From Leisingera sp. JC1 (GTDB lineage Bacteria; Pseudomonadota; Alphaproteobacteria; Rhodobacterales; Rhodobacteraceae), in the NCBI RefSeq assembly GCF_001679925.1, contig NZ_LYUZ01000097.1, forward strand, positions 167 through 41,877: a DNA stretch of 41,711 nucleotides, written 5' to 3'. The position numbers and the translations under genes are program-made. The notes beneath the pieces were generated by a model. That model had not been told where the DNA came from. It saw only the letters and a program-made list of their open reading frames with translations, and did not search any database. Shown here piece after piece: positions 19,501 to 41,711 of the stretch. Each line of letters opens with the position of its first letter. Position 1 is the stretch's first letter.

Positions 19501-19504
19501 GGCT

Positions 19505-26786: not shown

Positions 26787-27160
26787 ACGCAACCAGCCGA
26801 TTGATCAGGCTGGGCATGCTGTAGGTCTGACGAACACCGCTGCCGTTCGGACCAAACGCAGCATTCGGTAGTATGGGCTGCGGCTTCGAGTATTATGTCG
26901 AAGTCAACTGGATATTACGCGACTTGGGGGCGAAAAGGAAAGCGGGCGCCCGAAGGCACCCGCTGACACTGAAGGAAACAGAGCGCCACAGAGCCTGCCA
27001 GCAGGACGCTCATTTACTTTATGCAGGAAGTTCGTTGGTGAAAGGTTTATGTTCCGGCGGAACGCTCGGGAGGTCTCAAAGCATGTTCGCCCACTTCCAA
27101 AACAAGGGATGACCCTTAGAGCCATTGCCGAAGCGCTCAACGAGTGCCGGTGTGCCCACC
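26787..27160. other. Intergenic with terminator and recombinase relic
   Basis: Between two convergent genes. It contains the leftward terminator at 26933-26963 and, at about 27105-27175, a short frame reading MTLRAIAEALNE and then, after a shift, GVPT. That recalls the Recombinase-domain helix of large serine recombinases and may be a decayed scrap. Nothing else is recognisable. Confidence 0.35.
26933..26963 (-). terminator. Rho-independent terminator (leftward)
   Basis: On the minus strand a 9-bp stem GCGGGTGCC / GGCGCCCGC (one G-U pair) with a TTCG tetraloop is followed by TTTCCTTTT. It would end transcription of the membrane-protein gene whose stop is at 27161, or act on readthrough towards the decarboxylase. 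Confidence 0.6.
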
Positions 27161-27718
27161 TCAATGGCCGGCGGAGCGCATGCTGCGGAAGAACAGCATC
27201 AGGGCCAACATCAAGAAGAACAGCCCCGACACATCGCCAATCATGTAGGCAACATACTCCGAGGGAGTGCTGCCCAATACGTTGTTGACCAGGACGGACT
27301 TAATGACAGAGATCAAAATGCCTGCGGTCATTAAACAGATCCAGCAGGACTGTTTGCCCGCCTTCGGGCGAATGTCCAAACCGATTAGTGCCAGCAGGTG
27401 GAAAACGGCCGGAGCAACACAAATAACAATGACGATAGAAATAATCCGGCTCGGAAGAAGGATGTTCATCCCGCCCAAAACCCAGAAGGCATAAATTACA
27501 CCCGGCAGTATCGCCAGCGCCGAACGCCAGCCCAACAACCAGGCCGTCAGAACATAGACACCGAACGGCAGATACAAGAGGCTGGCAAAATGAACGAACT
27601 CTGCAAAGAACAGATTTTGAATCGGCATCCAAACCAAAGAGGTCAACCAGAACGCCGCTATGTATAGCCCAGATACCGTGAGGGTCTCTCGGACCCATAT
27701 CAGCCACCGGGCACTCAT
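27161..27718 (-). CDS. Small multi-pass membrane protein, unknown function
   Basis: Protein of 185 aa with about five to six hydrophobic segments (for example LTVSGLYIAAFWLTSLVW, FASLLYLPFGVYVLTAWLLGW, IISIVIVICVAPAVFHLLALIGL, YMIGDVSGLFFLMLALMLFF) and short charged loops. I do not recognise a family; the layout is loosely like integral-membrane sensor domains, but no signalling domain follows. It starts 8 bases downstream of the winged-helix gene on the same strand, so the two probably form an operon. Confidence 0.65.
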   Translation of the reverse strand: MSARWLIWVRETLTVSGLYIAAFWLTSLVWMPIQNLFFAEFVHFASLLYLPFGVYVLTAWLLGWRSALAILPGVIYAFWVLGGMNILLPSRIISIVIVICVAPAVFHLLALIGLDIRPKAGKQSCWICLMTAGILISVIKSVLVNNVLGSTPSEYVAYMIGDVSGLFFLMLALMLFFRSMRSAGH

Positions 27719-27726
27719 GTGGAAAG

Positions 27727-28035
27727 TCAGTTCTTGGCAGAAGGATGTTTCACGACATACTTGCCCCGGTCGGAGGTGTCGCTTGGCGACAGGTACCCTT
27801 TTTGTACCAGAGACTTCAGCGCACGGAAGAAGGTCGGCCGCGAGATCCCGGCGACTAGCGAATGTTTCTGTAATCCGATTGTGCGAAAATCATCCTGGCT
27901 GTCTGATATATCGCAGGCGGCATAATAAATATCCCGCTCCACTGCTGACAGATTCTCCAACCCCAGAGCTTGCTCCATCCCCAACAGCATTTTTCGCAGC
28001 TCTGCGAGTTTGGAAATTTCACTCATGTTTGGCAC
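27727..28035 (-). CDS. Small winged-helix (MarR-like) regulator
   Basis: Protein of 102 aa consisting of a short coiled N-terminus and one winged helix: LSAVERDIYYAACDIS...LQKHSLVAGISRPTFFRALKSLVQKGYLSPSDTSDRGKYVVK. SRPTFFRALKSLVQKGYL is the recognition helix and wing entry. The true start may be the ATG three codons in (28026, MSEISKL). It precedes a membrane-protein gene by 8 bases. Single-domain regulators of this kind are common in roseobacters; the target is unknown. Confidence 0.75.
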   Translation of the reverse strand: MPNMSEISKLAELRKMLLGMEQALGLENLSAVERDIYYAACDISDSQDDFRTIGLQKHSLVAGISRPTFFRALKSLVQKGYLSPSDTSDRGKYVVKHPSAKN

Positions 28036-28108
28036 CGGTTAAAGTTCAACTGCTTGGAATTCTTGCTTCGTTTTTGAAAGCTTGCAACAGAAATCAAGGA
28101 AGTCTCAT

Positions 28109-28227
28109 GTTGACACTTGAGGGGAGTTCCTTAATCTCTGCTGCAGTCCGGTAGCGATGTTATGTGAGTGGTGGCTACCGAAAGTTCATAGTTTTAAGTT
28201 TGCGGCACCTTCGGGTGCCGTTTTATT
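28109..28227 (+). ncRNA. Candidate small RNA with terminator
   Basis: A TTGACA box at 28109-28114 with a weak TAATCT-like box about 16 bases later is followed by an inverted repeat CGGTAGC (28149-28155) / GCTACCG (28174-28180). A strong terminator follows: CGGCACC-TTCG-GGTGCCG then TTTT (28203-28224). No open frame or rightward gene precedes this terminator for more than a kilobase. A transcript of roughly 85 nt is therefore plausible. It is not a recognised RNA family. Confidence 0.4.
28203..28224 (+). terminator. Rho-independent terminator
   Basis: Perfect 7-bp GC-rich stem CGGCACC / GGTGCCG closed by a TTCG tetraloop and followed by TTTTATT on the plus strand. It ends the candidate small RNA; the opposite strand lacks a U-tract. 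Confidence 0.8.
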
Positions 28228-28371
28228 GACTACCAACTTTAGCCAAATATGCCCACCCCGACAATCCGCCCATGAGAATTGGGCCGTGTGCTTGGTTGAG
28301 CTAATGGGTTGAACTGCCTTCCCACCAAACCGCCGCTATTGTTGCGGGCATAGATGGGGAGAAGAGCGTCT

Positions 28372-28428
28372 GATGGACATCGAGGTTTTGGGCATTGATC
28401 GTTGCTGTTCGGCGAAGGTGATCCTCCC
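28372..28428 (+). pseudogene. IS110-type transposase start, tiny remnant
   Basis: An ATG opens MDIEVLGID, which resembles the first residues of one IS110 subgroup, and then the frame turns into unrelated sequence as the IS3-type left end (CCCCCAGTGAAGTGG) begins. Only about ten codons support the call, so it is tentative. Confidence 0.3.
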
Positions 28429-28474
28429 CCAGTGAAGTGGTCCGCCGTTATGTTTAGGAAAACGGAGGATCAGA

Positions 28475-28540
28475 ATGGGAACGAAGCGGCACAAACCCGA
28501 AGAAATTGTCACGAAGCTGCGGCAGGTTGAGGTGCTTGTC
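28475..28540 (+). pseudogene. IS3-family orfA, 5' part (interrupted by Tn3-type element)
   Basis: With GGAGG upstream, the ATG at 28475 opens MGTKRHKPEEIVTKLRQVEV, the standard start of an IS3-group OrfA. After 22 codons the frame is broken by the transposon at 28541. The reading continues exactly in frame at 40527. The last five bases (TTGTC) are the duplicated target. Confidence 0.85.
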
Positions 28541-28578
28541 GGGGTCTGCTCCTGTAGGGGGCAGGATAGTACGCTAAG
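28541..28578 (+). repeat. Left terminal inverted repeat of the Tn3-type element
   Basis: The 38-bp end starts GGGGTCTGCTCC and finishes GTACGCTAAG, the classical Tn3-family shape. The tnpA stop codon lies 9 bases inside it. It is preceded by the target duplication TTGTC. Confidence 0.92.
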
Positions 28579-28587
28579 CCGGAGTGG

Positions 28588-31473
28588 TCATCGTTTTGGC
28601 CACCTATACTCGCCCGTCAACAGAATATGAGCCCAACCGAGTGGTGAGATGTGCGACAGGAGCTCTGGCGGGCAATCTCGACCATCGTGCAATCTTGCCG
28701 TAACCGCGCGCCCGAGATGATCCGTGTTCCAATAGATGATGATCGCGGCCAATAGATTCAGGCCAGCCATCCTGTAGTGCTGACCTTCAGCCGTGCGGTC
28801 CCGGATTTCACCTTGCCTGCCAATACGCAGAGCATTTTTGAGGGCGTGATGCGCTTCACCCTTGTTCAAACCGACCTGGGCGCGGCGCTGCATGTCGGTG
28901 TCCAGCAACCATTCGATTATGAACAGGGTGCGCTCGATGCGGCCGATCTCCCGCAGCGCTACTGCAAGTTCATGCTGGCGCGGGTATGACGCGAACTTTT
29001 TCAGCAATTGGCTGGGAGGCATGATACCAGCCGCCATTGTCGCAACGGCACGCAATATGTCCGGCCAATTCTGGGCGATCAGATTTTCCCGGACCTTGCC
29101 GCCAATCAGGCCGCGCAGTTCTTTGGGGGCTGTTGAGGGATCGAACACATACAGGTGTTTGGATGGTAGGTCCCGAATACGCGGGATGAACCGATAGCCC
29201 AACAGAGCCGAAACAGCAAAGACATGATCAGTGAAGCCGCCCGTATCGGCATATTGCTCTTTGATCCGCTTGCCGGTTTCATTCATGAGCAAACCGTCGA
29301 GGATGTAGGGCGCTTCGCTTACCGTCGCCGGAATGTTCTGGGTGGCGAATGGCCCGAACTGGTCGGAAACATGGGTATAGGCTTTCAACCCCGGCTCATT
29401 GCCATATTTTGCGTTGATTAGGTTCATCGCCTCGCCCTGACGCGCCGCCGGGAAGAATTGACCATCACTGGACGCGGTGACACCAGCACCCCAGAACTTT
29501 GCCATCGGTAATGTGGATTGTGCGTCAATGACTGTGGCCAATGCCCGGTTGATGGCCTCGCTTTCGATGTGCCATCGGGACAGGCGGGACAATTGGAGGT
29601 AGTCGTGGGTGTTGGTGGCCTCGGCCATCTTGCTCAGTCCAAGGTTCAAGCCCTCGGCCAGCAGAACATTCAGCAGCCCAATCCTGTCCTTGCAAGGCGC
29701 ACCTGTTCGCAGATGGGTAAAGGCGTCTGTGAATCCAGTGGCCTCATCCACTTCCAGAAGCAGGTCGGTGATGCGGATATCTGGTAGTTGCCGATAGAGA
29801 TCGAGGACGAGAGCCTCCGCCTCGTCAGGGACGACGGTTGTTAGGCGCTCGATCTTCAGTGTGCCGTGCTCAATAGAGCCGCCGGGGATGGCTCCGTGCC
29901 TGGTAGCACGTGCTAAACGGTTCAGGCCGTCGGTGATCCGCGCCTTTCGATCCGAGAGCCAAGTGACCGGATCAAGAGGCATGGTCAATCTGGGGATGGC
30001 GGGAACAGCGGAGATTGGCACAAGGGCCTGCTTCAAATCAGCGCAGCGTTTTGAATGCCGCAGCCAGATATCCCCGGATCGGAAGGCATCGCGCAGATGA
30101 AACAGCGCTGCAACCTCCCAGAGGCGCAGGTCATCCTCCGGCTGCGCTTTAAGGTGCCGATGCCATTTCGAGTTTTTGCGCAGAAAATCTGTCGGTTTTA
30201 CCCGGTCGCTTTTTCCGCCAATTAACTCAGCGGCATTCATCAAGGGAATAGCGACTGGGGCGGCCTTGATATCCAACGATTTCAGCATGCGCGGGGCATA
30301 GCGTCGGAACCGGCGATGTCCTTGTATGACATGAGCAAGTGGATCCGCTGCCATGGTCTTGGTCAGCTGCGCCGATGTCGCAACCAGCTCTTCGAGAGCC
30401 GTCCATCCGGGTGTGTCCGAAACAGTGGTTTCGAGGGATACACCATCGCTATGTGCAGCAAGCAAGGCGGTTCCCAACTCGGTGAAGGAGCGCAGGGTTT
30501 GCTGCACAGCGGCCTTTGCGTCGTCAACGCGGGTATCACACAAACTCTTGGCATCGCGCCATGTCTTCCCAACGATCCGATCATGGGTTTCGACAACAGC
30601 ATCAGCGATGGCCGCTTGCCATTCGACGGTGCAAACCGCCAGAATGGCTAGGCGCCGGTCACTGGAAATGTCCCGCAACCCGTCCGCAAAATACCGTTCA
30701 CCCTGTCTGCGCAACCGGGTAATCCGATGAGGTGGCACATCGTCCAGAACTTCTCTCGGAATTCCGAGCGCCTGCAAGAATTCCAGCCGATCCAGAAGGC
30801 GACTGGCACCGGACGAGTTTTTTCCGACCTCAAACTGACGCAGCCAGACAAATCGGCTGACCCGCTCATCGACCAGTTCCGTTAGCAATGAATCCAGTTG
30901 GGCTTGCATGGGTTCATTGAGACGCTCCGCAATACGGCTGTCGATCTTCCGTTCTGCGGCAACCAGGGCATCAGCGCAAAGCCGTTCAACAACGGAGACA
31001 CCGGGCAGGATTGTTTGCGTCTGGCGACATTGCTCCACGAGCCGCCGCGCCAAATCCAAATTTGACCGTGCTGTTTCCGCTTCCCGTACCAACCATGTTT
31101 TCAGATCACGTGCCCCCTGGCCCGAGAACATCTTGTAGCCGTAAATCTCTCGCAGATCGGCAAGGTGTTCGCGTCGGGTTTCGGCCCGGTGCGCGTAATC
31201 TATCAAGTCTTCAGGCGCTATGCCCAACTGTGCCGCCAGAAACTCTGTAATCTCGGATGGAATGACCTCCCCCGGCTGCAACAACCGACCCGGATAGCGA
31301 AAGACACAGAGTTGTAAAGCAAATCCGAAGCGATTGTGTGACCGGCGGCGGGATCGAATGTGTTCGATGTCATCATCAGCCAACGTGTAGTGCCGCAATA
31401 AGGTTGCTTCATCGGCTGGAAGATCAAACAACGCTGCCCGCTGTCGGTCGCTCAAAATCTGGCGTCTTGGCAA
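28588..31473 (-). CDS. tnpA: Tn3-family transposase TnpA
   Basis: Replicative transposase of 961 aa, normal for the family. The N-terminal DNA-binding region (DUF4158 type) reads PRRQILSDRQRAALFDLPADEATLLRHYTLADDDIEHI. The C-terminal Tn3 DDE domain has the first Asp in GAGVTASSDGQFFPAARQGEAMN, the second in AYTHVSDQFGPF, a likely Glu in NKGEAHHALKNALRIGRQGEI, and the family-typical RMAGLNLLAAIIIYWNTDHL. It appears intact. The open frame has no early ATG; I place the start at a TTG giving (M)PRRQIL, with GGAAA a few bases before, though a TTG four codons upstream is possible. It is divergent from tnpR across the res region. Confidence 0.93.
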   Translation of the reverse strand: MPRRQILSDRQRAALFDLPADEATLLRHYTLADDDIEHIRSRRRSHNRFGFALQLCVFRYPGRLLQPGEVIPSEITEFLAAQLGIAPEDLIDYAHRAETRREHLADLREIYGYKMFSGQGARDLKTWLVREAETARSNLDLARRLVEQCRQTQTILPGVSVVERLCADALVAAERKIDSRIAERLNEPMQAQLDSLLTELVDERVSRFVWLRQFEVGKNSSGASRLLDRLEFLQALGIPREVLDDVPPHRITRLRRQGERYFADGLRDISSDRRLAILAVCTVEWQAAIADAVVETHDRIVGKTWRDAKSLCDTRVDDAKAAVQQTLRSFTELGTALLAAHSDGVSLETTVSDTPGWTALEELVATSAQLTKTMAADPLAHVIQGHRRFRRYAPRMLKSLDIKAAPVAIPLMNAAELIGGKSDRVKPTDFLRKNSKWHRHLKAQPEDDLRLWEVAALFHLRDAFRSGDIWLRHSKRCADLKQALVPISAVPAIPRLTMPLDPVTWLSDRKARITDGLNRLARATRHGAIPGGSIEHGTLKIERLTTVVPDEAEALVLDLYRQLPDIRITDLLLEVDEATGFTDAFTHLRTGAPCKDRIGLLNVLLAEGLNLGLSKMAEATNTHDYLQLSRLSRWHIESEAINRALATVIDAQSTLPMAKFWGAGVTASSDGQFFPAARQGEAMNLINAKYGNEPGLKAYTHVSDQFGPFATQNIPATVSEAPYILDGLLMNETGKRIKEQYADTGGFTDHVFAVSALLGYRFIPRIRDLPSKHLYVFDPSTAPKELRGLIGGKVRENLIAQNWPDILRAVATMAAGIMPPSQLLKKFASYPRQHELAVALREIGRIERTLFIIEWLLDTDMQRRAQVGLNKGEAHHALKNALRIGRQGEIRDRTAEGQHYRMAGLNLLAAIIIYWNTDHLGRAVTARLHDGRDCPPELLSHISPLGWAHILLTGEYRWPKR

Positions 31474-31586
31474 TTCTGTTTCCAATGCGTGAGGGGGGCT
31501 TGTCCGTAAGAGGATCGTTCAACGGACGTTTTTCCGCCGCGACATCCCTTCAACAAAACTGACTGAGTGAGTGTCTCATATAGGCA

Positions 31587-31624
31587 GTACGATATAAATT
31601 GCAATGAAGGGGCCTTATTCGTAC
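31587..31624. promoter_or_regulatory. res-type dyad (resolvase-binding site candidate)
   Basis: Imperfect inverted repeat GTACGATATAA (31587-31597) / TTATTCGTAC (31615-31624) between tnpA and tnpR, ending about 10 bases before the tnpR ATG. Tn3-family elements carry resolution sites in this divergent intergenic region, where TnpR also represses both genes. Other subsites are probably present in 31486-31586 but were not resolved by eye. Confidence 0.55.
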
Positions 31625-31633
31625 AGTTCGGCC

Positions 31634-32209
31634 ATGAACACCACACTTATCGGATACGCCCGCTGCTCCACCGACAGCCAGGACCTTACCGCGCAGAAAC
31701 AAGCACTGCAAAAGCTCGGCGTGGCCCCGGATCGCATTTACACGGATCATGGCTTGACCGGCACCAATCGCGCCCGGCCCGGTTTGGATCAGGCCATTGC
31801 AGCTGTGCGGGAAGGCGACACCCTTGTCGTGCCCAAGCTCGACCGGCTGGCCCGCTCTGTGCCCGATGCCCGCGCTATTTCCGACCAGCTCCAGGAGAAA
31901 GGGGTCAAGCTAGCCCTCGGCGCATCCGTCTATGATCCGACAGATCCGATGGGCAAGATGTTCTTCAATATCCTCGCCACCTTTGCCGAATTCGAAGCCG
32001 ACCTGATCCGCATGCGTACCAGAGAGGGCATGGCCATCGCTCGCGCTAAGGGCAAGCTGCGTGGCAAGCAGCCCAAGCTGACAGAGAGGCAACAAAAAGA
32101 ACTGTGCCGTATGCACGGCACCGGCGAATACTCGATCAACGATCTGGCTGAAGTTTTCTCAGTGTCGCGCCCCACCGTCTACAGAACCTTGAAGCGGTAC
32201 CAGAGCTGA
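31634..32209 (+). CDS. tnpR: Tn3-family serine resolvase TnpR
   Basis: Serine recombinase of 191 aa. The catalytic domain begins MNTTLIGYARCSTDSQDLTAQK, with the nucleophilic Ser in the RCST motif, then YTDHGLTGTNRARPGLDQA, LVVPKLDRLARSVPDA and FFNILATFAEFEADLIRMRTREG. A C-terminal helix-turn-helix reads YSINDLAEVFSVSRPTVYRTLKRY. It resolves cointegrates at the adjacent res site. The ATG at 31634 is chosen to match the family N-terminus, dropping ten in-frame codons that overlap the res dyad. Confidence 0.93.
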   Translation: MNTTLIGYARCSTDSQDLTAQKQALQKLGVAPDRIYTDHGLTGTNRARPGLDQAIAAVREGDTLVVPKLDRLARSVPDARAISDQLQEKGVKLALGASVYDPTDPMGKMFFNILATFAEFEADLIRMRTREGMAIARAKGKLRGKQPKLTERQQKELCRMHGTGEYSINDLAEVFSVSRPTVYRTLKRYQS

Positions 32210-32255
32210 CCTTCTATCTAGGTACATATAAAGCATCAGCATTAGCACAACAAAT

Positions 32256-32283
32256 GCTATCCCCGTTTTGCAACGGGGATAGC
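32256..32283 (-). terminator. Terminator of the indigoidine-type operon
   Basis: A perfect 12-bp inverted repeat GCTATCCCCGTT / AACGGGGATAGC with a four-base loop lies 36 bases after the MFS stop. On the minus strand it is followed by ATTTGTTG, a weak U-tract. It lies between the convergent tnpR and MFS genes and may serve both. Confidence 0.6.
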
Positions 32284-32319
32284 GCGGCAGGAGAGAACCT
32301 GCTTGGGGAGGAACTGGTG

Positions 32320-33558
32320 TTAGCCGGCTGCGCGCAGTCCGCGGTCCAGGGAAACGCTGCGCAGCATGGTGGAGAAACGTTTGTAGCTTTCAGGAGAGTA
32401 GCGAACAGCAAGGAAGATCATCAGGAGAGAACCTGCCGCCATAACCAGCCAGACATTGCTAAGGTCCGACATTGCATCCCGCACGGCGCCAGCGGACAAT
32501 GGCACGAAGCTGGCCAGAATATAGCCGCCGCCCTGCACGAAAGAGGTGAAGTTGCCTGCGGTTGTGGGGTCGTCCACGTGATCGATGGCCACGATGATTG
32601 ACAGCGGGAACAGAATGCCAATGCCGACACCCAGCAACGCCATTGCCAGGAAGGACATATCAATCGGGGCGGTGTACAGCACGCCGAAACCCAAAGCTGT
32701 CAGGACAAGCGCAAAGACCAGGGGGCCGCGGCGATCCGGGAAATGATGGATAAAGGCTGCAACGCCCAAGGCCGTAACAGCTTCGATCACCGTCAATGCA
32801 GACAACAACAGGCCTGCGGTCCCTTGATCCTGCCCCTGTTCGAGGTAGAAGGGCGGAATCCAGGCCATCACCAGCATGAAGGCGCCGGTGCCGACCCCGA
32901 AAAACAGCATCAGCGACCAGCAACGCGCGCTGCGCCAGAACTGCGGCGGCGTTGTGCCCGCCGCGGGGGCAGGCGCTGTGCGCTCACTGTCGGCGTTGCG
33001 CGCAGCCATGGCCCAAATCAGAACCGCGAGAACCGCAGGCAGGCTCCAAGCGGCCAGAGTGCCGGTCCATTCCAGCGAGGACGCAAGCCCTGCAGCTGTG
33101 CCCGCTGCAATGGATGCGCCGGCCACGATCCCGGTGGAGTAGAGGCCGATCACCCGGCCGGTTGCGGCACCGAAGTTGCGCTTGGCAAAACCCGGCATCA
33201 GTGATTGCACCATGGCAATGCCGATCCCCGCCCCCGCGGCGGTGACGAGGAGGCCGGGACCTGTGGGCAGCCACATGCGGGCGGCACAGGACACGGCAAT
33301 GATCAGTGCGCCCAGAGTGATGCCGCCGCGCTCGCCCAAGGCCGCGCGCAGCTGGCGCACATAGATGGCGCCAATACCCATCAGGAACACCGGGATCATA
33401 GTCAGGAAGCCGATGATGGTGGAGTTGACGCCGGTTTCGCCCAGGATTTGCGACACCAGCGGGCCGATGGCAGCAACTGCAGGGCGCAGGTTCAGTGAGA
33501 TCAGGAATATCGCGACCAGCAGTAATGCTGGTGACGCTTTGGCGATGCGTGTGGTCAT
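32320..33558 (-). CDS. MFS transporter (CynX/NimT type), putative product exporter
   Basis: Major facilitator protein of 412 aa with about 12 hydrophobic segments. The N-terminus ALLLVAIFLISLNLRPAVAAIGPLVSQI carries the NLRPA motif of the CynX/NimT-like MFS branch, and GIGAIYVRQLRAALGERGGI is the loop 2-3 motif. It is the last gene of the cargo operon, 31 bases after the tautomerase gene. By context it would export the NRPS product, its precursor or a toxic by-product; the direction is not decidable from sequence. From memory, a five-gene indigoidine operon igiBCDFE is described in the roseobacter Phaeobacter sp. Y4I, and this would match its last gene. Confidence 0.85.
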   Translation of the reverse strand: MTTRIAKASPALLLVAIFLISLNLRPAVAAIGPLVSQILGETGVNSTIIGFLTMIPVFLMGIGAIYVRQLRAALGERGGITLGALIIAVSCAARMWLPTGPGLLVTAAGAGIGIAMVQSLMPGFAKRNFGAATGRVIGLYSTGIVAGASIAAGTAAGLASSLEWTGTLAAWSLPAVLAVLIWAMAARNADSERTAPAPAAGTTPPQFWRSARCWSLMLFFGVGTGAFMLVMAWIPPFYLEQGQDQGTAGLLLSALTVIEAVTALGVAAFIHHFPDRRGPLVFALVLTALGFGVLYTAPIDMSFLAMALLGVGIGILFPLSIIVAIDHVDDPTTAGNFTSFVQGGGYILASFVPLSAGAVRDAMSDLSNVWLVMAAGSLLMIFLAVRYSPESYKRFSTMLRSVSLDRGLRAAG

Positions 33559-33589
33559 GGGAAATCCTTTCGATGAGACGTCTGGAAGG

Positions 33590-33823
33590 TCAAACCGCCG
33601 AATAATCCGGCGATTTGATCAGTTCTTGGGGCCGGGTTTCGATGTCCGGAACAAAGACGCTGCCGTGCCAGTCATCCGGTGCCACCGGGCGCAGTGCGAT
33701 TGAGACCGCATGTGCCGAGCAGCCAAAGGCCTGAGTGACCGACCGGGTAATGGCTTCTGAGAGGGTTGCGTGCTGTTCAGCAGTCAGTGTGGCGGCAAAA
33801 TGCTTGATGATAACGTGGGGCAT
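33590..33823 (-). CDS. 4-oxalocrotonate tautomerase-family protein
   Basis: Small protein of 77 aa beginning MPHVIIKHFAATLTAEQHATLSEAITRSVTQAFG. The N-terminal Pro after the initiator Met is the catalytic base of the tautomerase superfamily, and the beta-alpha-beta spacing fits 4-OT. It begins 4 bases after the NRPS stop, so coupled translation is likely. A tautomerase could act on the keto-enol forms of oxidised glutamine products, or process a toxic intermediate; no role is established to my knowledge. Confidence 0.85.
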   Translation of the reverse strand: MPHVIIKHFAATLTAEQHATLSEAITRSVTQAFGCSAHAVSIALRPVAPDDWHGSVFVPDIETRPQELIKSPDYSAV

Positions 33824-33827
33824 GGGA

Positions 33828-36800
33828 TCAGGTCTGTTGCAGGTTGCGGATTGCAGGCTGGGCCGGCTGCCATGCCGGAACGTGACGGCGAATTGCAGCG
33901 GCCAGCTCGGCAACGCCGCCGGGTTTGAGAAGTTCGTAGTGGTCGGCAGCCAGCGTGTGGACTGGTGCCGGAGCGGCCAGAATGCGGGTGGCTTCCTCCA
34001 GGAAGGAGAGATTGTCGCCCGCCGCCTTGAACAGGCGCACCGGCGCGGCCACTTGGCGCTGTTCCATCTGCAGCCCGTATTCGGGCGCATAGGTCTGTGC
34101 CACCAGCCGGGTGATACGGCCGATCATGCCCGGGTCGAGATCCGGCTTTTCGGCGGCGATATACGCGACGAAGCTGTCCAGATCCGAAACCTGTTCGATC
34201 ACCGGAGCCACCCGGTCCGCAGCAATTGTCTGGGCAAAGACCGAATACAGGATGGTCAGGAAGGACGGGTCGCGGAATAGCGCGGGCTTATCCGCGCGCA
34301 CGGGATCGCCGCCGGGCAGCTCTGGAGAGCCTGGCGCGATCAGGGTCAGCTCCGCCACCTCACTGCCTGCCTGCTCCAGCTGATAGGCGGTCTCGTAAGC
34401 CACCCGCGCGCCAAAGGAATATCCCCAAAGCGTGTAGGGGCCTTCCGGTTGCGCCTGACGGATCAGTTCGGCATCGCGAGCTGCCATTTCCTGGATCGAG
34501 CCGCAGACCTGCTCACCAAGGTTCACGCCAGAGGCCTGCACTCCAATGACGGGACGGGGCGTGTCGAGTTCCCGTGCAAGATGACGCAGGTTCATCGGAT
34601 AACCGCCAAGACCGGGCCAGCAAAATACCGGGCTGCCCCTGCCTTTCTTCAATGGCACTGCACGCGACAGGCTGGAGCCAGCACTGCCGCCGTCCAAACG
34701 GCTAGCCAGCGCTTCGATTGTTGTGTCTTCGAACAGCACCTGAACCGGCAGGCTGGCTTTAAAGGCCCGGTTGATGCCCTGCACCAGTTTGACGGCTTTC
34801 AGCGAGTCACCCCCGATTTCAAAGAAATCGTCTCGTACCGAGACCTCCTCAATGCCCATTTGCGCGCACCAGATCTCTGCCAGACGGGTTTCCGTATTGT
34901 TGCGGGGTGCGATGATTTCGCGCTCGGCTGCGGCATCGTCGAACTCCGGGAACGCTTTGAGGGCATTCACATCCACTTTGCCCGATGCGCTGTAGGGCAT
35001 CGATGGCACCAGTGCCAGTTTGCTGGGCACCATATAGTCGGGCAGCGAAGATTGCAGGTCGCGGCGGATCAGTTCAGCCGGGCCTTCCATATGCACGCTG
35101 TCTTCATGCATGCCTTCATGCGCAATCTGTTCGGCGCTGATCTTGCCGAACACCGCACTGTAGCAAGCGCCAGAGGGGAGGCCCTGCGCGTTCAGGATGT
35201 CCTTGAGGCGGGTAGCCGCAACAAGATCATTACCGGATTTGGAGCTGTAGCCCGACGACATGGTTCCGATGCGGCAGCTGTTCTGCTGTATACGCTGCAG
35301 GCTGCGGCCCAGGTCGATATAGGCGTGCCAGCGCTCTGCGTTCCGGCTGACTATCGAGAGCATGCCGCTGGCCCGTTGATAGACACGCTGGTTGATGGCG
35401 ATCACATGGCGCTGTTCCATGATGTGGCGTGAGAACGGCTGCAAACCGCCATCACGGTAGGCGTAATGCCCCGGCTCCAGCCCCGCGACCTTGCTGCCAT
35501 GCGCCTGGACGTAGTAGTCCACCGGCAATTCGGTCTGCCGGTCTGCATGGGCCGTGACCGTATAGCCGGCAATATAGATGTGACCCGGGCCGCACTGCAG
35601 ATGGGGCAGCGCATCCGGCGCATCAGTGCCCGTACCGATGCCCAGCCCATGCGCCGGCAGGACATGGTCCATCAGGCCCAGGATATGGCCGGTCTCAAAT
35701 TCCAGAACTTCGCGGATGTTGTTCTTGTAGACCGGCTCGATGGCCGGGATTTTGCCTACGAAATGCAACTGCATCACCGGCTTGGCCGAGGCCAGGCGCG
35801 GCGCTGTCAGAACCAGTTCATGGCGGGCCGGGTGATAATAATAATAGCCTGGTTCAAACCCCGCGACATTTGCCAGCTCCACATAGACCTGCGTTGCGTT
35901 CAGCGCACCCGGCGAAGCATAGGCATGCTTGGGCAGCAGACGCTCTTCGCTGGTGAACTGACCCAGCCAGCGCAGCAGGTAACCCAGATCACTGGTGCTG
36001 AGCGCCTCAAGCCCGCCCGCAACTGAGGCCGGCTGTTCCGGCTGTGACAGGACCGAAAGCACATCCTGAGCCGAGACCTCCCCGCCTTCATAGAAACGGT
36101 AAGTTTTGCGGGCAAACGCCAGCTTCCGCTGGGCCGCATCCGCATCGCCCCCCGTCAGCGTATAGGTCTTGCGCCCGTCGGTTTCCGCCGAGCTGCGCAG
36201 GCCTGCGCCGGACAGCTGAGCCCGCACTTGCAAGCGGCTTTTCTTGCTGTGGTGATGGGTGCCAGCATTGCCCTGATCCATCAGCGGTGCTTCGCGCGGG
36301 TTCAGCTCAATACCCGCGGCAAGCACCGGCTGGCCGGTGCGGGCATGAGGCTTGATGAATACACCCGCAGCCTTGACCCAGTCGTGGTTCTCGATGGCCA
36401 AGCGGATTTCATCCAGTTCAATCCGGTAGCCGCGGAATTTGACTTGATTGTCGGCGCGGCCCCTGAATTGCAGGGTGCCATCGGGATTTTGGCACACCAT
36501 ATCTCCGGTTTTGTAAAGCCGCAGCGGCATGCCGCCAGCCGGGCTGACCCAGGTGATAAAGCGTTCGGCAGTCAGTTCGACGCGATTGTGATAGCCATTT
36601 GCCAGCTGGCGGCCGCCAATATACAGTTCGCCCGCCGTACCTTCAGCAACCGGCTGCAGGTTTTCATCCAGCACCCAGCAGCTTGTATTTGCGGCTGGCT
36701 GGCCGATCGGGATCATCTCCGGGCCGTCTTCCAGCGTCGCCGGATCCACCGTCTGGGCGGTGGCGTTAATGGTGCATTCGGTCGGCCCGTAAAGGTTTAC

Positions 36801-37769
36801 CAAGCGGCAGCCGGGGCGGGCTTCAAAAATCCTGGTGGCCAGCTTGCGGGTCAGGGCCTCGCCGCCGCTAAACAGGCTGGTGACGGTGGTGCAGCTTTCG
36901 AATTCCGGGAGGTCAACCAGTGCCTGCAGCAAGGTTGGCACCCCCTGCAGCATGGTAACCCCATGCTGTTTGACCTGCTCAATCAGAGCTTCTGGATCAC
37001 GGTAAACGCCGGGACGGCCCATCACAACCTGAACGCCGCAGCAGACCGCCAGCAGTTCCCACTGTGCGGCGTCAAAGCTGACGGGAGTTTTCTGCAGAAT
37101 GACTTCACCCACCCGCAACTTCTGCTCAGTTTGCAGCCAGGTCAGCTGGTTGAGGATCGCGGCATGGGAAATGCCTACGCCCTTTGGCGCGCCGGTGGTG
37201 CCGGAAGTGTAGATCATATAGGCCAGATCGTCCTCCAGAAGAGCAGGGCCGCACAAGCAATCGCTGTCTTCCTGGCCAGAAACCGCATCCAGCGCATCCA
37301 AAGTAATCACGGTAACTTCCGGCAGGATCATCTCAGCCAGGCGGCCCTGCAGCTTGTCCTGGGTGACGATCACTTCAATACCGGCATCACGGATCATGTA
37401 AGTGAGCCGGTCCACTGGATAATCGGTGCCCAGCGGCAGATAGGCACCGCCCGAGAACAGAATACCCCAGAGGCCCGCCATCATCTCGGCGGAGGAGTCC
37501 GCGAACAGCCCCACACGACTGCCCGCGCCGACACCAGCACGTTTCAGGCGAGCGGCCAGGCGAGCGGCGTATTCGGCCAGATCGCTATAGCGCAGCGCGC
37601 TGGTATCGTCGCATACAGCGATTTCTTCGCCGCGGCAGCGCACCTGTAGCATCAGCATATCAACCAACGAGGTGCGTTCCGACGCAGTGCGCAGCAGCGC
37701 GCGGGTGATATCGGTTTGCTGAGGCCGGTTGGTAATGGGTTTGGAAAGGAGCGAATTTGAGGTGCTCAT
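33828..37769 (-). CDS. igiD: Indigoidine synthetase-type NRPS (A-Ox-T-TE)
   Basis: Single-module NRPS of 1313 aa with the BpsA/IndC/IgiD architecture. The adenylation domain (about residues 40-540) has YTSGTTGAPKGVG, NLYGPTE, YKTGD and GRADNQVKFRGYRIE. An inserted FMN oxidase domain of SagB/nitroreductase type (about 550-890) precedes the final A motif PYSASGKVD. The carrier domain has DDFFEIGGDSLK (phosphopantetheine Ser about 989), and the thioesterase has WGYSFGARVAYE (Ser about 1119) and a late DHYELL His. Specificity residues aligned to GrsA read D-A-W-Q-F-G-L-I-N with the A10 Lys, the glutamine-type code of indigoidine synthetases. It would cyclise, oxidise and release two glutamines that dimerise to blue indigoidine. 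The ATG at 37769 has AGGA upstream. No phosphopantetheinyl transferase is in the window. Confidence 0.93.
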   Translation of the reverse strand: MSTSNSLLSKPITNRPQQTDITRALLRTASERTSLVDMLMLQVRCRGEEIAVCDDTSALRYSDLAEYAARLAARLKRAGVGAGSRVGLFADSSAEMMAGLWGILFSGGAYLPLGTDYPVDRLTYMIRDAGIEVIVTQDKLQGRLAEMILPEVTVITLDALDAVSGQEDSDCLCGPALLEDDLAYMIYTSGTTGAPKGVGISHAAILNQLTWLQTEQKLRVGEVILQKTPVSFDAAQWELLAVCCGVQVVMGRPGVYRDPEALIEQVKQHGVTMLQGVPTLLQALVDLPEFESCTTVTSLFSGGEALTRKLATRIFEARPGCRLVNLYGPTECTINATAQTVDPATLEDGPEMIPIGQPAANTSCWVLDENLQPVAEGTAGELYIGGRQLANGYHNRVELTAERFITWVSPAGGMPLRLYKTGDMVCQNPDGTLQFRGRADNQVKFRGYRIELDEIRLAIENHDWVKAAGVFIKPHARTGQPVLAAGIELNPREAPLMDQGNAGTHHHSKKSRLQVRAQLSGAGLRSSAETDGRKTYTLTGGDADAAQRKLAFARKTYRFYEGGEVSAQDVLSVLSQPEQPASVAGGLEALSTSDLGYLLRWLGQFTSEERLLPKHAYASPGALNATQVYVELANVAGFEPGYYYYHPARHELVLTAPRLASAKPVMQLHFVGKIPAIEPVYKNNIREVLEFETGHILGLMDHVLPAHGLGIGTGTDAPDALPHLQCGPGHIYIAGYTVTAHADRQTELPVDYYVQAHGSKVAGLEPGHYAYRDGGLQPFSRHIMEQRHVIAINQRVYQRASGMLSIVSRNAERWHAYIDLGRSLQRIQQNSCRIGTMSSGYSSKSGNDLVAATRLKDILNAQGLPSGACYSAVFGKISAEQIAHEGMHEDSVHMEGPAELIRRDLQSSLPDYMVPSKLALVPSMPYSASGKVDVNALKAFPEFDDAAAEREIIAPRNNTETRLAEIWCAQMGIEEVSVRDDFFEIGGDSLKAVKLVQGINRAFKASLPVQVLFEDTTIEALASRLDGGSAGSSLSRAVPLKKGRGSPVFCWPGLGGYPMNLRHLARELDTPRPVIGVQASGVNLGEQVCGSIQEMAARDAELIRQAQPEGPYTLWGYSFGARVAYETAYQLEQAGSEVAELTLIAPGSPELPGGDPVRADKPALFRDPSFLTILYSVFAQTIAADRVAPVIEQVSDLDSFVAYIAAEKPDLDPGMIGRITRLVAQTYAPEYGLQMEQRQVAAPVRLFKAAGDNLSFLEEATRILAAPAPVHTLAADHYELLKPGGVAELAAAIRRHVPAWQPAQPAIRNLQQT

Positions 37770-37898
37770 GGTATGTCCTGTCAAGTATTGGAATGTTCAT
37801 TACAAAACTGGCGGCCACTCACCGCCGGAGCAGGCCGACAGTGAGTATGTTGCTATTCAGAAAGATGCCAGCAGCAGGTATGCCCGCTACGGGCTGAG

Positions 37899-38648
37899 TC
37901 AGTGGTTTTCGTAAAGAAGACCGCGACCGGAGATCGGGTCGGTCACACCGCAGCTGCGCAGCGCGTGCCAGTAAAGAACCGCATTGTTCGACAGCACCGG
38001 TTTGCCAACCCAGGTTTCGGCAGCAGCGGCAAAATCCGCCATGGGAACATTGGTCCCCACTTGGACAATGGCTTCCACTTCCGGGCGGTCAACGTCCAGC
38101 ACAGCGTCACGCAGGTTTGTTGGGGTAACGTCGGAGATGTTTGACGGCGTCCGTCCGCCAAGACCATGCATGGCCGCAACCTCGATCCCGCTATCGGTGA
38201 AGAACCGCGAAACCGGTTCATCTCCCAGTTCCAGGTAAGGAGAAATCAGGCCAATTCTCCGGATACCGCCAAGCGCTTTTAGCGCTGCCAGGATTGCGTC
38301 TGCGCTCATGATGATCTTTGCACCGCCTGCAGCTTTCGCAAGGCGGCCATGCAAAGCCTCATGCGCAGAGTGGCCTTCCCAATATCCATCTGGAGATACC
38401 GCAACAATAATCGCCCCGGTGCCGCAATGGCGCAGGCTGCGGATGGCGTCCGGGGTGGAGCTGCGGATATTTTCAATGACCCGATTGAAGCCCTCCTCAT
38501 GGGTCAGGGAATCATCGTCGATGATCATCCTGCCGATGTGGTTTGTAACGCCAAAGGGGCGCATGGCCTCCATCTCTGGCTGAGCCGAAGTGTTAGTCGA
38601 TGGAATGGCGACACCGACGCGCAGCCGTTTTCCCAGAAAATTACTCAT
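37899..38648 (-). CDS. Asp/Glu racemase-fold protein (maleate isomerase/arylmalonate decarboxylase-like)
   Basis: Protein of 249 aa. It has N-terminal LRVGVAIPSTNTSAQPEM, the mid-part GGIRRIGLISPYLELGDEPVSRFFTDSGIEV, and C-terminal GKPVLSNNAVLYWHALRSCG, matching maleate cis-trans isomerases and arylmalonate decarboxylases. At the two usual cysteine positions it reads AIIVAVSPDGYW (Val where YAC-type Cys sits) and IVQVGTNVPM (Gly where SC(T/A)-type Cys sits). Both nucleophiles thus appear absent, so isomerase or decarboxylase chemistry is doubtful. AGGA precedes the ATG. It lies between the dehydrogenase and NRPS genes, as I recall for the igi cluster of Phaeobacter sp. Y4I (igiC position). 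Confidence 0.8.
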   Translation of the reverse strand: MSNFLGKRLRVGVAIPSTNTSAQPEMEAMRPFGVTNHIGRMIIDDDSLTHEEGFNRVIENIRSSTPDAIRSLRHCGTGAIIVAVSPDGYWEGHSAHEALHGRLAKAAGGAKIIMSADAILAALKALGGIRRIGLISPYLELGDEPVSRFFTDSGIEVAAMHGLGGRTPSNISDVTPTNLRDAVLDVDRPEVEAIVQVGTNVPMADFAAAAETWVGKPVLSNNAVLYWHALRSCGVTDPISGRGLLYENH

Positions 38649-38705
38649 GACTAAATCCTGTAATTTTGAAATTTTCGATCAATGGCTTGGGGCGCAGCTG
38701 TGCTG

Positions 38706-39599
38706 CTAGGCAAGAAACGTGGCGGCCATATCGGCGCCGCCATGGCCTTGGTCCTGCACCCGCCTGTAGCGGTTCAGGCCTGCCTCGGCCAAATCCAGCT
38801 TCACCCCGGCTTTCAGTGCGGCGTCAACGATCAAAGCACTGTCCTTGACCGCATTATCGATGGTGAATGCTGGAGCGAAATCGCCCGAGGCCATAGCTTG
38901 GGCTTTCATTTGAAAGAAAGGGGTATCCAATGGCCCGCCACGCAGAGTGTCCGCCACTAGCTCCGGATCCAGTCCCAGGCCGCGAGCCAGCGCCAGGCTC
39001 TCTGCCGCTCCGTGTGTCAAAGCGAAGACCCAGCTGTTCAAGGCCAGTTTCAGCCGGGTCGCCATCCCGGGGGCAGTGTCCAGCCAGCGGGTGGCTTTGC
39101 CGACCGCATCCAGCACCGGCTGCACAACTTCCTTGGTGCTGTCCGGTCCGGCCGCCAGCACGAGAAGCTGGCCCGCCTCTGCCGGTTGGCGAGTGCCAAG
39201 CACCGGCGCGTCGATCAGGGTGAGCCCCTTGCGGGCCGCCAACGTCTCCAGTCCGGGCATGTCGGCCGGCCCGACTGTGCTCATCTGCAGCCAGCAGACA
39301 GGTGCCCCGGGCACGCTCTCCGCATCCGGCAGTACTGACATGGCTTCGGCAATGGCCCCTGCGTCTTTCAGCATGGTCACAATGACACTGGCATTCTGAA
39401 CTGCCTCGGCGGGGTCCGCAGCCGGGGTGATACCTGGCCCTGCCAATGAAAACGCCTTGTCGGGGGAGCGGTTCCATACACTGACTTGGCAACCAGCCGC
39501 AGCGATATTGCGGGCCATTGGGCCTCCCATCAGTCCAGTCCCCAGAACTGCCACGTGTAGTACGGGGCGGGACGGCGGCAAAATTGCGTCAGTTGTCAT
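38706..39599 (-). CDS. Beta-hydroxyacid dehydrogenase family (3-hydroxyisobutyrate dehydrogenase-like)
   Basis: NAD(P)-dependent enzyme of 297 aa. The N-terminal Rossmann motif is VAVLGTGLMGGPMARNIAAAG with VWNRSPDKA (Arg suggests NADP preference). The substrate-binding block LIDAPVLGTRQPAEAGQL is followed by the catalytic Lys in MATRLKLALNSWV. The family reduces or oxidises short beta-hydroxyacids; some members reduce imines. GAGG lies 6 bases before the ATG. It is the first gene of the NRPS operon, downstream of the TetR gene and of a palindromic operator candidate. Confidence 0.87.
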   Translation of the reverse strand: MTTDAILPPSRPVLHVAVLGTGLMGGPMARNIAAAGCQVSVWNRSPDKAFSLAGPGITPAADPAEAVQNASVIVTMLKDAGAIAEAMSVLPDAESVPGAPVCWLQMSTVGPADMPGLETLAARKGLTLIDAPVLGTRQPAEAGQLLVLAAGPDSTKEVVQPVLDAVGKATRWLDTAPGMATRLKLALNSWVFALTHGAAESLALARGLGLDPELVADTLRGGPLDTPFFQMKAQAMASGDFAPAFTIDNAVKDSALIVDAALKAGVKLDLAEAGLNRYRRVQDQGHGGADMAATFLA

Positions 39600-39675
39600 G
39601 TTAAACCTCTGTTTTCTGGGTCAAAGCGACCGCTGTAGTGTCAAATCCACTTGGACGGTTGGCATCTGAAACTAC

Positions 39676-39697
39676 TTGTGGACCAATCATTCCACAA
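39676..39697. promoter_or_regulatory. Palindromic operator candidate for the TetR regulator
   Basis: Perfect inverted repeat TTGTGGA (39676-39682) / TCCACAA (39691-39697) with an 8-base centre, in the gap between the TetR gene and the first biosynthetic gene, about 77-98 bases before its start. A TTGACT box on the minus strand (39704-39699) directly abuts it. Size and position fit a TetR-family operator over a promoter. Confidence 0.55.
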
Positions 39698-39732
39698 TAG
39701 TCAACAACCAAAGGGAGATCTTCATGTTGATG

Positions 39733-40314
39733 TTACACCGTTTCGATGGAGGCTTCGACGATACTGTGCAGATAGGGCTTGCGGCAGGCCGCTGGAAGCC
39801 CTTTACTAACAACTCTAAGGCCTTGTATTACAGCAACAAAATACCTGGATAGCATTTGGCAGTCTCGATCAGGCGAAATTTCGCCACCCTTTTGGCCGTA
39901 CTTCAAAAGGCGCAGCAACCCGCTTTCCAACCGCTCGAAATGCTGCGCGACCAGCGCACTGAGTTCCGGATCCCGGCCGGAAATCTCCAGGCTGCTGTTG
40001 GCGGCAAAACAGCCAAAGCCCTCGTGGTCGCTCAACTCGTCGTCAACGATGGACAGCAACAGTGCGCGGAGGCTGCCCCGCACATCAGCGGTCCGGGAGA
40101 TCATCGCGACATTCTCGGTGGTTACCCGTCGATATTCTTTAAGTGCAAGCGCAAAAAGCGTTTTCTTGCCCCCAAAGGAATTGTAAATCGTGCTGCGGGA
40201 CAGGCCGGTTGCTTCCACCAGATCATTCATGGAAGTCGCAGCATAGCCATTGCGCCAGAATGTGCGCATGACTGCGTCAACTACCGCGCCCTCATCAAAT
40301 TCTCTTGGCCTCAT
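39733..40314 (-). CDS. TetR-family transcriptional regulator
   Basis: Regulator of 193 aa. The N-terminal helix-turn-helix reads AVVDAVMRTFWRNGYAATSMNDLVEATGLSRSTIYNSFGGKKTLF. The C-terminal ligand domain contains HEGFGCFAANSSLEISGRDPEL, typical of one TetR subgroup. I start at MRPREF (40314), because the upstream 20 in-frame codons lack family likeness. It is the first cargo gene inside the right end of the Tn3-type element, on the same strand as the biosynthetic genes, and probably controls them. Confidence 0.9.
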   Translation of the reverse strand: MRPREFDEGAVVDAVMRTFWRNGYAATSMNDLVEATGLSRSTIYNSFGGKKTLFALALKEYRRVTTENVAMISRTADVRGSLRALLLSIVDDELSDHEGFGCFAANSSLEISGRDPELSALVAQHFERLESGLLRLLKYGQKGGEISPDRDCQMLSRYFVAVIQGLRVVSKGLPAACRKPYLHSIVEASIETV

Positions 40315-40483
40315 AGTTATCAACCATTTTGTACCGAATGTTTCAAAACTATGCCAGAAGAGAGCTCCATGCAACTATGTTGTGTAGGTGATTGAGCGTA
40401 GCGGGGGAGAGCTACAAAGTGGTAGCCAAACGATAGGTGGTTGGCAGCAACTTCCTTCGGATTTCACTCAAGAAAATTTGGGT

Positions 40484-40521
40484 CTTATCGTACTATTCTG
40501 CCCCTTACCGGAACAGACCCC
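40484..40521 (-). repeat. Right terminal inverted repeat of the Tn3-type element
   Basis: The 38-bp end, read inward from 40521 on the minus strand, begins GGGGTCTGTTCC and differs from the left repeat at five positions. It is followed by the target duplication TTGTC at 40522-40526. No gene lies between it and the TetR start at 40314. Confidence 0.92.
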
Positions 40522-40643
40522 TTGTCGGGCAAGGGATGGCGCGGGTGGATGCGATCCGCGAAGTGCGCATCACCGAGCAGACTTATTACCGCTGGCGCAA
40601 GCAGTATGGCGGGATGGGAAAGCGCCCCGCGACCGGCCATTGA
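40522..40643 (+). pseudogene. IS3-family orfA, 3' part after the transposon
   Basis: After the second TTGTC copy the frame continues GQGMARVDAIREVRITEQTYYRWRKQYGGMG, the helix-turn-helix end of an IS3 OrfA, exactly in frame with the 22 codons at 28475-28540. The rest of OrfA and all of OrfB are missing: the reading departs after GGMG and stops at 40641. So the target IS was either already truncated or lost its 3' part later. Confidence 0.85.
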
Positions 40644-40888
40644 TAGCCGTCAATGGCGGCGCGGCTGAGCCGAGGCTATAAGCGGAAACGGGGATATTTC
40701 TAGGCGGGAAGCTTCCGCCGTTGACGCCCGTCAATGTTGTGCGGTTATCGTGTCCGGTGCGGGCATGGCATCCTCGCTGTTCGCCTCTCCAGAACTATTT
40801 TGAACGGTTTTGCGAAGCGCGCATTGACTGCTGACAAGACTGATCGGGCTATTGTCTCCCATGGCCCGCTGCCCGATGGCGAAAAGGG

Positions 40889-41245
40889 TCAGGGCATGTC
40901 GTCCCAAGAAGGTTGCTGCAGTGATAAGCCTCCCATCAGCGCCAGCACAGAGCCGCAGACCAGTGATTGGGCCAGTGCGGCGGGAACCAGATAGAAACCG
41001 AGCATCCAAGGCGCCCAGATTACCCAAAGCCCAAGCAGCATGATGGCCAGTTCCAGCCATCTGAGAAAGACAAACATTTCCAGCATGGCCAGTGCCGCTG
41101 CCGCTAGACCGGATGCCAGGGAGTTCATGGCGATATGCGTAAGGTCAAGGCCGACAGGCCAGTCGATGCGGAAGGCAAGCGGTGCCAGTAAAAGCCAGAG
41201 GCCAGCAGTGAAACTCACGCAGTCCTGCCAATGGGCGCGGTTCAT
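40889..41245 (-). CDS. SPW-repeat membrane protein
   Basis: Protein of 118 aa with four hydrophobic segments arranged as two similar halves: WQDCVSFTAGLWLLLAPLAF and WLELAIMLLGLWVIWAPWMLGF. The W...G.W....PW pattern is the SPW-repeat signature found in small membrane proteins of unknown function. It ends in a short polar tail. It follows a disrupted BON-domain gene 28 bases downstream on the same strand. Confidence 0.75.
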   Translation of the reverse strand: MNRAHWQDCVSFTAGLWLLLAPLAFRIDWPVGLDLTHIAMNSLASGLAAAALAMLEMFVFLRWLELAIMLLGLWVIWAPWMLGFYLVPAALAQSLVCGSVLALMGGLSLQQPSWDDMP

Positions 41246-41273
41246 TGTGCGAACCTTCTCTGAGTTGGGCAGA

Positions 41274-41460
41274 TCACGGTTCCACGCTGAGACCGTCGAC
41301 TACGCTGCTGACGCCAGGCACCGCCCAGGCAGCTCGTCGGGCGGCATCCCGTTCGGCCTCGGTGCGCACTCGCCCGGTCAATGTGACCGCGCGGTCGTCG
41401 ATATTGATCTGAATGCCCTTCCCTGGCGGCGTCGCGCCGCAGGGCGGTTTCAATGCTCAT
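41274..41460 (-). pseudogene. BON-domain protein, frameshifted and truncated
   Basis: The minus strand reads MSIETALRRDAA and then, after a one-base frame change near 41420, GIQINIDDRAVTLTGRVRTEAERDAARRAAWAVPGVSSVVDGLSVEP. This is one complete BON (osmotic/periplasmic) domain. Proteins of this family usually carry two or three such domains and a stress or membrane-binding role. The upstream part is cut off by an ISL3-family element whose end is at about 41484. Confidence 0.7.
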
Positions 41461-41483
41461 CCTGTGAATCGGCGTGCAAAATT

Positions 41484-41711
41484 GGCTCTGACTCAGTTTT
41501 GGTGCAACTTCGGCCTCCCTCAGATCAGAGCGCTTGAACGAGCCGCGCTTTGAGCAGGTCGATGTTCGCCCTTCCATACATCTGGCGTTTGAGCGTCTTG
41601 AGGCGGTTAATCTGCCCTTCAGTCTGCCCGTTCGACCATGGTTCCCGAAGCGCCGCGGCGACGGCTGCCTGATCGCGCCGCAGCCCGCGGGCAAAGGCAC
41701 CGAGCAGCCCG
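41484..41711 (-). mobile_element. ISL3-family element, partial (transposase C-terminus)
   Basis: From 41711 down to the stop at 41525 the minus strand encodes GLLGAFARGLRRDQAAVAAAL, then EPWSNGQTEGQINRLKTLKRQMYGRANIDLLKARLVQAL, the ISL3 transposase C-terminus with the conserved WSNGQTEGQINRLK block. The IS end probably begins GGCTCTGACTCAG at 41484. The element continues beyond the window. It is a different copy from the decayed one at 2.6-4.0 kb. Confidence 0.85.

Follow-up and report, generated by a model that had tools for sequence, protein, structure and literature searches.

In a 41,711-nt stretch of DNA from Leisingera sp. JC1, hereafter the window, whose positions serve as coordinates throughout, positions 28541-40521 form a complete Tn3-family unit transposon of 11,981 bp, and between its resolvase gene and its right end lie the six igi genes for indigoidine, a blue antimicrobial pigment. 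An earlier reading made from the letters alone (the sequence-only reading) had proposed 38-bp inverted repeats about 12 kb apart with five mismatches, bordered by perfect 5-bp TTGTC target duplications, and direct comparison bore out both. The left terminal inverted repeat on the tnpA side (IRL, 28541-28578, plus strand) and the right one on the cargo side (IRR, 40484-40521, minus strand) are equal at 33 of 38 positions, and TTGTC abuts the tips of both, at 28536-28540 and at 40522-40526. These ends are of the GGGG...TAAG type and fall within the 38-40 bp range of the Tn3 family; the automatic inverted-repeat search had left the pair unlisted. The second-best inverted match to IRL within the window has 17 mismatches, and a degenerate end pattern searched over the window genome at up to 3 mismatches gave one forward and one reverse match and no third end, with 0 matches for the reversed-pattern control.

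The transposition module begins with tnpA (28588-31485, minus strand), an open frame of 965 amino acids that scores 1008 bits against NF033527, the Tn3-family equivalog profile (cut-off 500), matches PF01526, and aligns over its full length with the solved Tn4430 transposase (PDB 7qd8/7qd4). Residues D674, D747 and E877 of TnpA align with D679, D751 and E881 of Tn4430 transposase, the D, D, E triad which we take to be its catalytic residues. The divergent tnpR (31604-32209, plus strand) encodes a serine resolvase, as shown by matches to PF00239 and PF02796 and to the gamma-delta and Tn3 resolvases in PDB. Between the two genes, alignment of 8 subgroup members delimited a predicted res-like region (31486-31633) with the dyad TGTCCG...CGGACG at 31501-31528, a second conserved block at 31573-31604 and a third just before 31634. 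This region would act as the res site, and because its conservation extends up to that point, tnpR probably starts at the ATG at 31634 rather than at 31604. Family-profile, Pfam and PDB matches, together with the conserved blocks, therefore uphold the proposal of tnpA, tnpR and a res-like dyad at one end, and to judge from its sequence the transposon at 28541-40521 is probably transposition-competent.

After tnpR, all on the minus strand, come igiE, igiF, igiD, igiC, igiB and igiR, and these gene positions agree with the sequence-only reading, which had placed all six between tnpR and the right repeat. The gene names and the order igiR, B, C, D, F, E follow PMC5014874, and the arrangement matches the described six-gene cluster. 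Going from tnpR to the right end, there is a terminator-like hairpin 3' of igiE (32253-32285), which in a comparison of 11 loci was present in the displayed igi loci with the exception of L078; igiE, encoding a transporter of the major facilitator superfamily (MFS)/CynX type by profile matches (32320-33558); igiF, for a 4-oxalocrotonate tautomerase-like protein of 77 amino acids by profile match (33590-33823); igiD, for the indigoidine-type non-ribosomal peptide synthetase (NRPS; 33828-37784); igiC, for an arylmalonate decarboxylase/EutA-like protein (37899-38648) and igiB, for a hydroxyisobutyrate-dehydrogenase-like oxidoreductase (38706-39599), both by profile matches; and igiR, for a TetR-family regulator (39733-40314), assigned by profile match and by a relative in Leisingera M527. 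The open frame of igiR continues to 40374, and in the M527 relative the annotated gene begins at the position that corresponds to 40314. Indigoidine synthase is a single-module NRPS with the domain order adenylation (A), oxidase, carrier, thioesterase (TE). In IgiD, Pfam finds the A, carrier and TE domains and gives no match for residues 490-900, the expected place of the oxidase domain; full-length relatives include one from Vogesella indigofera (53%) and one annotated indigoidine synthase (43%). Sections of PMC5014874 on these bacteria report that JC1 produces indigoidine, as shown by liquid chromatography-mass spectrometry, that JC1 and Y4I have the same six igi genes, and that an indigoidine-producing Leisingera comes from squid eggs and inhibits Vibrio fischeri.

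The transposon sits within the orfA of an IS3-type insertion sequence (IS), and its flanks are the halves of a single IS3 remnant: the left part (28424-28540, plus strand) has the left target duplication as its last five bases, and the other part (40522-40620, plus strand) begins with the right duplication and ends near 40620. Joined with one TTGTC, the flanks are 90.9% identical, over 209 bases and with no gap, to an IS3 copy on plasmid unnamed5 of Leisingera M527 that is uninterrupted at this point, and the IS3 copy in L009 spans the junction; three further copies of the left part occur in the window genome. The expectation that removal of the transposon restores orfA in frame held for 53 codons, after which the frame diverges, since what is left of the IS3 is only a remnant. 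The search for empty IS3 orfA sites was likewise answered in part: the M527 copy is uninterrupted at this point, but we found no filled and empty pair for the transposon alone. The left flank at 25140-28423 is 98.2% identical to contig G004:C1 (L162), and as this match stops at 28423, where the IS3 remnant starts, G004:C1 represents an empty site for the IS3 plus the transposon and not for the transposon alone. To the right of the transposon, a repeated block at 40746-41462 recurs in G000:C82 and G001 at 98-99% identity, and another at 41463-41711 has many copies in G000 and G004; both blocks are probably IS-type repeats.

Siblings of this transposon, with a similar tnp module and similar ends, carry other genes in the slot that igi occupies in the window. 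On plasmid pP36_d of Phaeobacter piscinae P36 (L007), a 6.3-kb element (8001-14345) with perfect GAAGT duplications holds a class A beta-lactamase gene and a LysR gene, with tnpA 93% and tnpR 92% identical to those of the window. A 12.4-kb element in G003, a genome of the genus Leisingera (1956-14346 of L140, which is G003:C5:67500-84500) has TATAT duplications, a tnpA split over two overlapping frames (90-95% identical) and a tnpR 91% identical, and its cargo comprises genes for Vsr, EamA, Oxygenase-NA, a pyridoxal phosphate (PLP) decarboxylase, a Cys/Met PLP enzyme, an MFS protein and a 2-oxoglutarate-Fe oxygenase, possibly another case of a metabolic operon carried by a Tn3 element; igiD has no match in G003 at 1e-150. 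In Rhodovulum P5 (L011) tnpR is followed by LysE and monooxygenase genes and then by the right end, the left end being out of view. Such ends flanking unrelated DNA without matching duplications would have spoken against mobile cargo, and this was not what we observed, as the duplications match in both P36 and G003. More widely, related TnpA was found in 31 of 394 family genomes (E <= 1e-100) and related TnpR in 25 of 390 order genomes (E <= 1e-80), the window genome counted in both. A genome of the genus Leisingera with no igiD match, G012, has several Tn3-family tnpA genes or pieces on contigs C66, C39, C77 and C10, at most 75% identical to that of the window.

Among 21 genomes of the genus, 9 have igiD, that of the window included (8 essentially full length and 1 truncated), and the igi cluster, whole or partial, is also found on Leisingera plasmids. 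In addition to the window we compared 12 igi loci (L003, L004, L005, L006, L008, L075, L076, L077, L078, L079, L080 and L167); the contigs of L079 and L080 also go by L012 and L015, and the L. caerulea plasmids H6, H7 and H8 lie outside the 12. Relics of the transposon stand at the igi junctions in 10 of them, as the right end beyond igiR in six and as pieces of tnpR beyond igiE in four. The right end lies outside igiR with 0-8 mismatches in L003, L004, L005, L008, L075 and L077, that of L075 being identical at 38/38 positions, and a control with 20 shuffled ends over ten loci gave 0 matches at up to 11 mismatches. In all five right-end loci that were aligned (L008 is outside the alignment), homology on the igiR side breaks off at window positions 40520-40525, no more than 4 bases from the end's tip, and past this point the sites have different DNA.

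The tnpR relics stand directly outside igiE in L006, L076, L167 and L080. In L006 and L076 they are 72-73% identical in nucleotides to the window from 31658 to 31915-31930, and that of L080, which runs without a break into the igiE junction, corresponds to the 3' end of tnpR (80% over 111 bases). Among nine tnpR genes, the relics of L006, L076 and L080 are closest to those of the window, P36 and Rhodovulum, the six others being more distant. The end scan gave no end in L012 or L015 (the contigs of L079 and L080), and the L080 relic came from a different search. These relics indicate that the window is not alone in having the arrangement of tnpR, igiE to igiR and right end. The same 12-kb block with different duplications, which the sequence-only reading had suggested looking for, was thus recovered as relics at the same junctions in those 10 loci but not as a second intact copy. 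As a separate observation, igiD is truncated in L078 (274 residues matched) and in L008 (333 residues matched); L078 retains the remaining igi genes and L008 is without igiE and igiF in the fetched stretch, so that both appear as decaying pigment loci.

Comparison of the flanks of ten loci and the window, complemented by annotation, assigned the window and the relic loci to five unrelated sites. Site A is that of the window; site B lies beside siderophore genes on plasmids of M527, M658, NJS204 and NJS201 (the last assigned by annotation and by five bases beyond the end); site C comprises the L. caerulea plasmids L006 and L167, the similar contig L076 of G004, L077 (a 4-Mb contig of G005) and L079 (L. 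aquaemixtae); site D is on a 3.9-Mb contig of G018; and site F is on the ANG59 contig. Short repeats aside, left flanks are mutually unmatched between the five sites, and right flanks likewise; the longest cross-site match, in which the left flank of L077 pairs with the right flank of L080 over 680 bp at 80%, is not enough for one site. Within site C, L006 and L076 have 3,158 bp of left flank in common with L077 and L079 at 93-94%, and since an L. caerulea plasmid and a 4-Mb contig thereby share a left flank, this site either moved between replicons or is ancestral. A single conserved igi locus without Tn3 ends, which would have argued against mobility, is therefore not what the genus presents, as igi loci occupy unrelated sites and most of them have relics.

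Outside Leisingera, we scanned nine of 22 igi loci (L013, L014, L016, L017, L021, L022, L024, L025 and L028) and three of 29 plasmid records (L164, L165 and L166), and in none of these 12 is igi bounded by such ends. L024 has a single chance-like end match with 12 mismatches. The one end in L166 (Rhizobium CB3171), also with 12 mismatches, points away from igi and is part of a distant, frame-broken Tn3 element (16885-20410) that adjoins the igi cluster on the Rhizobium plasmid and does not enclose it. Among the seven loci searched for tnp genes (L013, L014, L016, L022, L164, L165 and L166), only L166 gave matches, including one of 40% to tnpR. Capture of igi by this transposon is therefore seen only in Leisingera.

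To compare the descent of igi with that of its hosts, we used an igi tree of 11 rows, with 8/8 inner branches starred, and an rpoB tree of 20 frames that is weakly resolved (6/17 inner branches starred; G015 yielded no rpoB). The igi tree groups the window with G018 and places G014 and G007 together on a deep branch. In the rpoB tree, G007 belongs to a 100/100 clade with G003, G013 and G017 that excludes G014; the latter groups with the window, but with weak support. The approximately unbiased (AU) test on rpoB rejects G014 + G007 (p-AU 3e-25), and igi rejects both G014 + window (6e-6) and G014 + window + G018 (4e-8). At least one lineage consequently departs from host descent, through either a transfer or an old duplication with later loss. 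The remaining igi groups are congruent with rpoB or go unrejected by it, as does G000 + G018 joined as in igi (p 0.27), and much of the igi distribution can be explained by vertical inheritance with loss. The suggestion that movement of the transposon accounts for the patchy occurrence of indigoidine is in this way backed by the conflict of G014 and G007 but not by the remainder, which mostly follows rpoB clades.

Two identity values stand out beside these trees. The igiC genes of L006 and L076, of L. caerulea type, are 94.9% identical to the window at the nucleotide level and their igiD genes 87-88%, so their igi cluster may be a mosaic. Window positions 40361-40522, from igiR to the right end, are 95.7% identical to L075 (G018), above the igi coding identity of 88-92%; constraint or recent exchange could underlie this value.

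The matching ends, the target duplication and the position of all six genes support the igi cluster as cargo of a complete Tn3-family transposon. The explanation that we favour, and hold as a whole with high confidence, is a complete Tn3-family unit transposon carrying the operon igiR-B-C-D-F-E, which was probably captured once, spread and became mostly frozen. Under this explanation, a single entry would have placed igi between tnpR and the right end before the divergence of the Leisingera igi copies. TnpA would pair the two 38-bp ends and transpose the 12-kb unit replicatively through a cointegrate, which TnpR would resolve at res. The Tn::igi unit would then have reached several replicons, where most copies may have lost the tnpA end and become fixed in place, so that the operon there would have outlived the mobility genes. 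We lean, with moderate assurance, towards a broader statement: that all Leisingera igi derive from one Tn3-family transposon with a swallowed NRPS operon, that it jumped to at least five plasmid and chromosome sites, that the transposase end was lost in nearly every lineage, leaving a fossil series, and that the same subgroup is a general roseobacter vehicle for multigene operons.

Several observations weigh against this account. No second complete Tn::igi was found: in the plasmid search, which may leave out records near the window's genome, 0/42 records cover 80% of the query, and among the 21 genus genomes both ends surround igi only in the window (at up to 3 mismatches). A search of 394 family genomes, which scored two first-look candidates per genome and in whose output the window genome and G016 stand for the genus, gave igiD at 1e-200 in the window genome only. 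At the remaining igi sites, loss of the left ends makes target duplications unreadable. L079 shows weak traces only, namely a 72% right-side match ending at 40514 and a 32-base tnpR match, and in L078, with its truncated igiD, no transposon relic was found. Because the igi tree mostly follows rpoB and G000 + G018 is unrejected, few between-species transfers are needed. Comparisons of dates are also rough, as identity at four-fold sites between L. caerulea and the window varies much among igi genes (70% for igiD and 85% for igiC).

Part of this evidence would suit one ancestral Tn::igi insertion followed by spread through homologous or illegitimate recombination and plasmid exchange, with transposition explaining only the origin and the window copy, an alternative that we regard as possible although doubtful. 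Both ends with a target duplication are seen at one locus only, and the scarcity of close transposase genes implies no self-movement now: no tnpA was found in the fetched stretches of the other igi loci, and of the 21 genomes of the genus only that of the window, G003 and G012 have a close tnpA (>60% identity), hence none of the eight other igi-bearing ones (G013 has 24%-identity matches only). The 3,158 bp of left flank common to the L006 plasmid and the L077 contig would also follow from such a history. However, the flanks of the five sites are unmatched side by side apart from the 680-bp match, and homology stops at the right-end tip in three unrelated flanks, as expected of transposition.

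Far less probable in our view is that igi is an old resident which a Tn3 element engulfed in the window genome only, for example through a chance end-like sequence near igiR. The comparison of composition that the sequence-only reading had called for gave a G+C content of 57.0% for tnpA-tnpR, below the 59.9% of the cargo, a difference that falls on the side of such engulfment, and the nearest relatives of the tnp module do have other cargo. Yet right-end and tnpR relics stand at the same igi junctions in other species, and on these shared relics we rejected a capture confined to the window. Moreover, the L. caerulea tnpR relic (72-73% nucleotide identity) is about as diverged from the window as the four-fold sites of igiD (70%), as if the linkage of tnpR and igi went back to their common ancestor. 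Least probable of all is a composite, IS-bounded transposon or an assembly artefact, in spite of IS3 remnants on both flanks and a 168-contig draft genome, because copies elsewhere that are uninterrupted at this point reveal the IS3 pieces as halves of one interrupted copy, no two complete IS copies bound the cargo, on which ground the composite transposon was rejected, and the target duplication sits at the tips of the 38-bp ends.

The favoured transposon resembles known elements in its machinery. As outlined in passages of PMC7157771, the TnpA of Tn3-family elements acts on the ends and copies the unit into a cointegrate, which the resolvase resolves at res; unit transposons described there likewise have 38-bp GGGG...TAAG ends, a DDE TnpA, a serine TnpR, a res-like region and a 5-bp duplication. 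Likened by gene arrangement and ends only, the window element also has in common with them the divergent tnpA and tnpR with res between them and the passenger between tnpR and the distal end. Those passages of PMC7157771 name as passengers genes for resistance, metals, virulence, plant pathogenicity, catabolism and toxin-antitoxin systems, whereas the passenger in the window is a whole NRPS pathway.

An NRPS cluster as transposon cargo has a precedent of another type in Tnces of Bacillus weihenstephanensis, a composite transposon for cereulide: according to PMC4057527, the clusters lie at plasmid and chromosome sites and a marked derivative of the element moved in E. coli; it is not a Tn3 unit and is instead bounded by two IS6-family elements with 8-bp duplications. 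The statement that no described Tn3 case with a whole NRPS pathway was known thus stands insofar as we found none in searches of the open-licence literature, but NRPS cargo as such is known from this composite element. Concerning igi itself, PMC5014874 and PMC3910702 describe, in their passages on the cluster, a homologous igiBCDFE cluster on the L. caerulea plasmid pCaer_B246, and the term 'transpos' occurs 0 times in the main texts of both papers, which cover igi of Y4I and L. caerulea; the igi loci of L. caerulea S185 and M561 differ from the window in that only the tnpR relic is kept.

The mechanism is that of an ordinary Tn3 element, and what is new is the class of cargo, which looks undescribed for Tn3, together with the fossil series. 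The passenger repertoire of Tn3 elements is hereby extended to a complete NRPS pathway. Movement of biosynthetic clusters is mostly inferred from patchy distribution, whereas here the vehicle, its ends, the target duplication and graded decayed copies are directly readable, which suggests that the transposon carried the indigoidine trait to several places in the genus.

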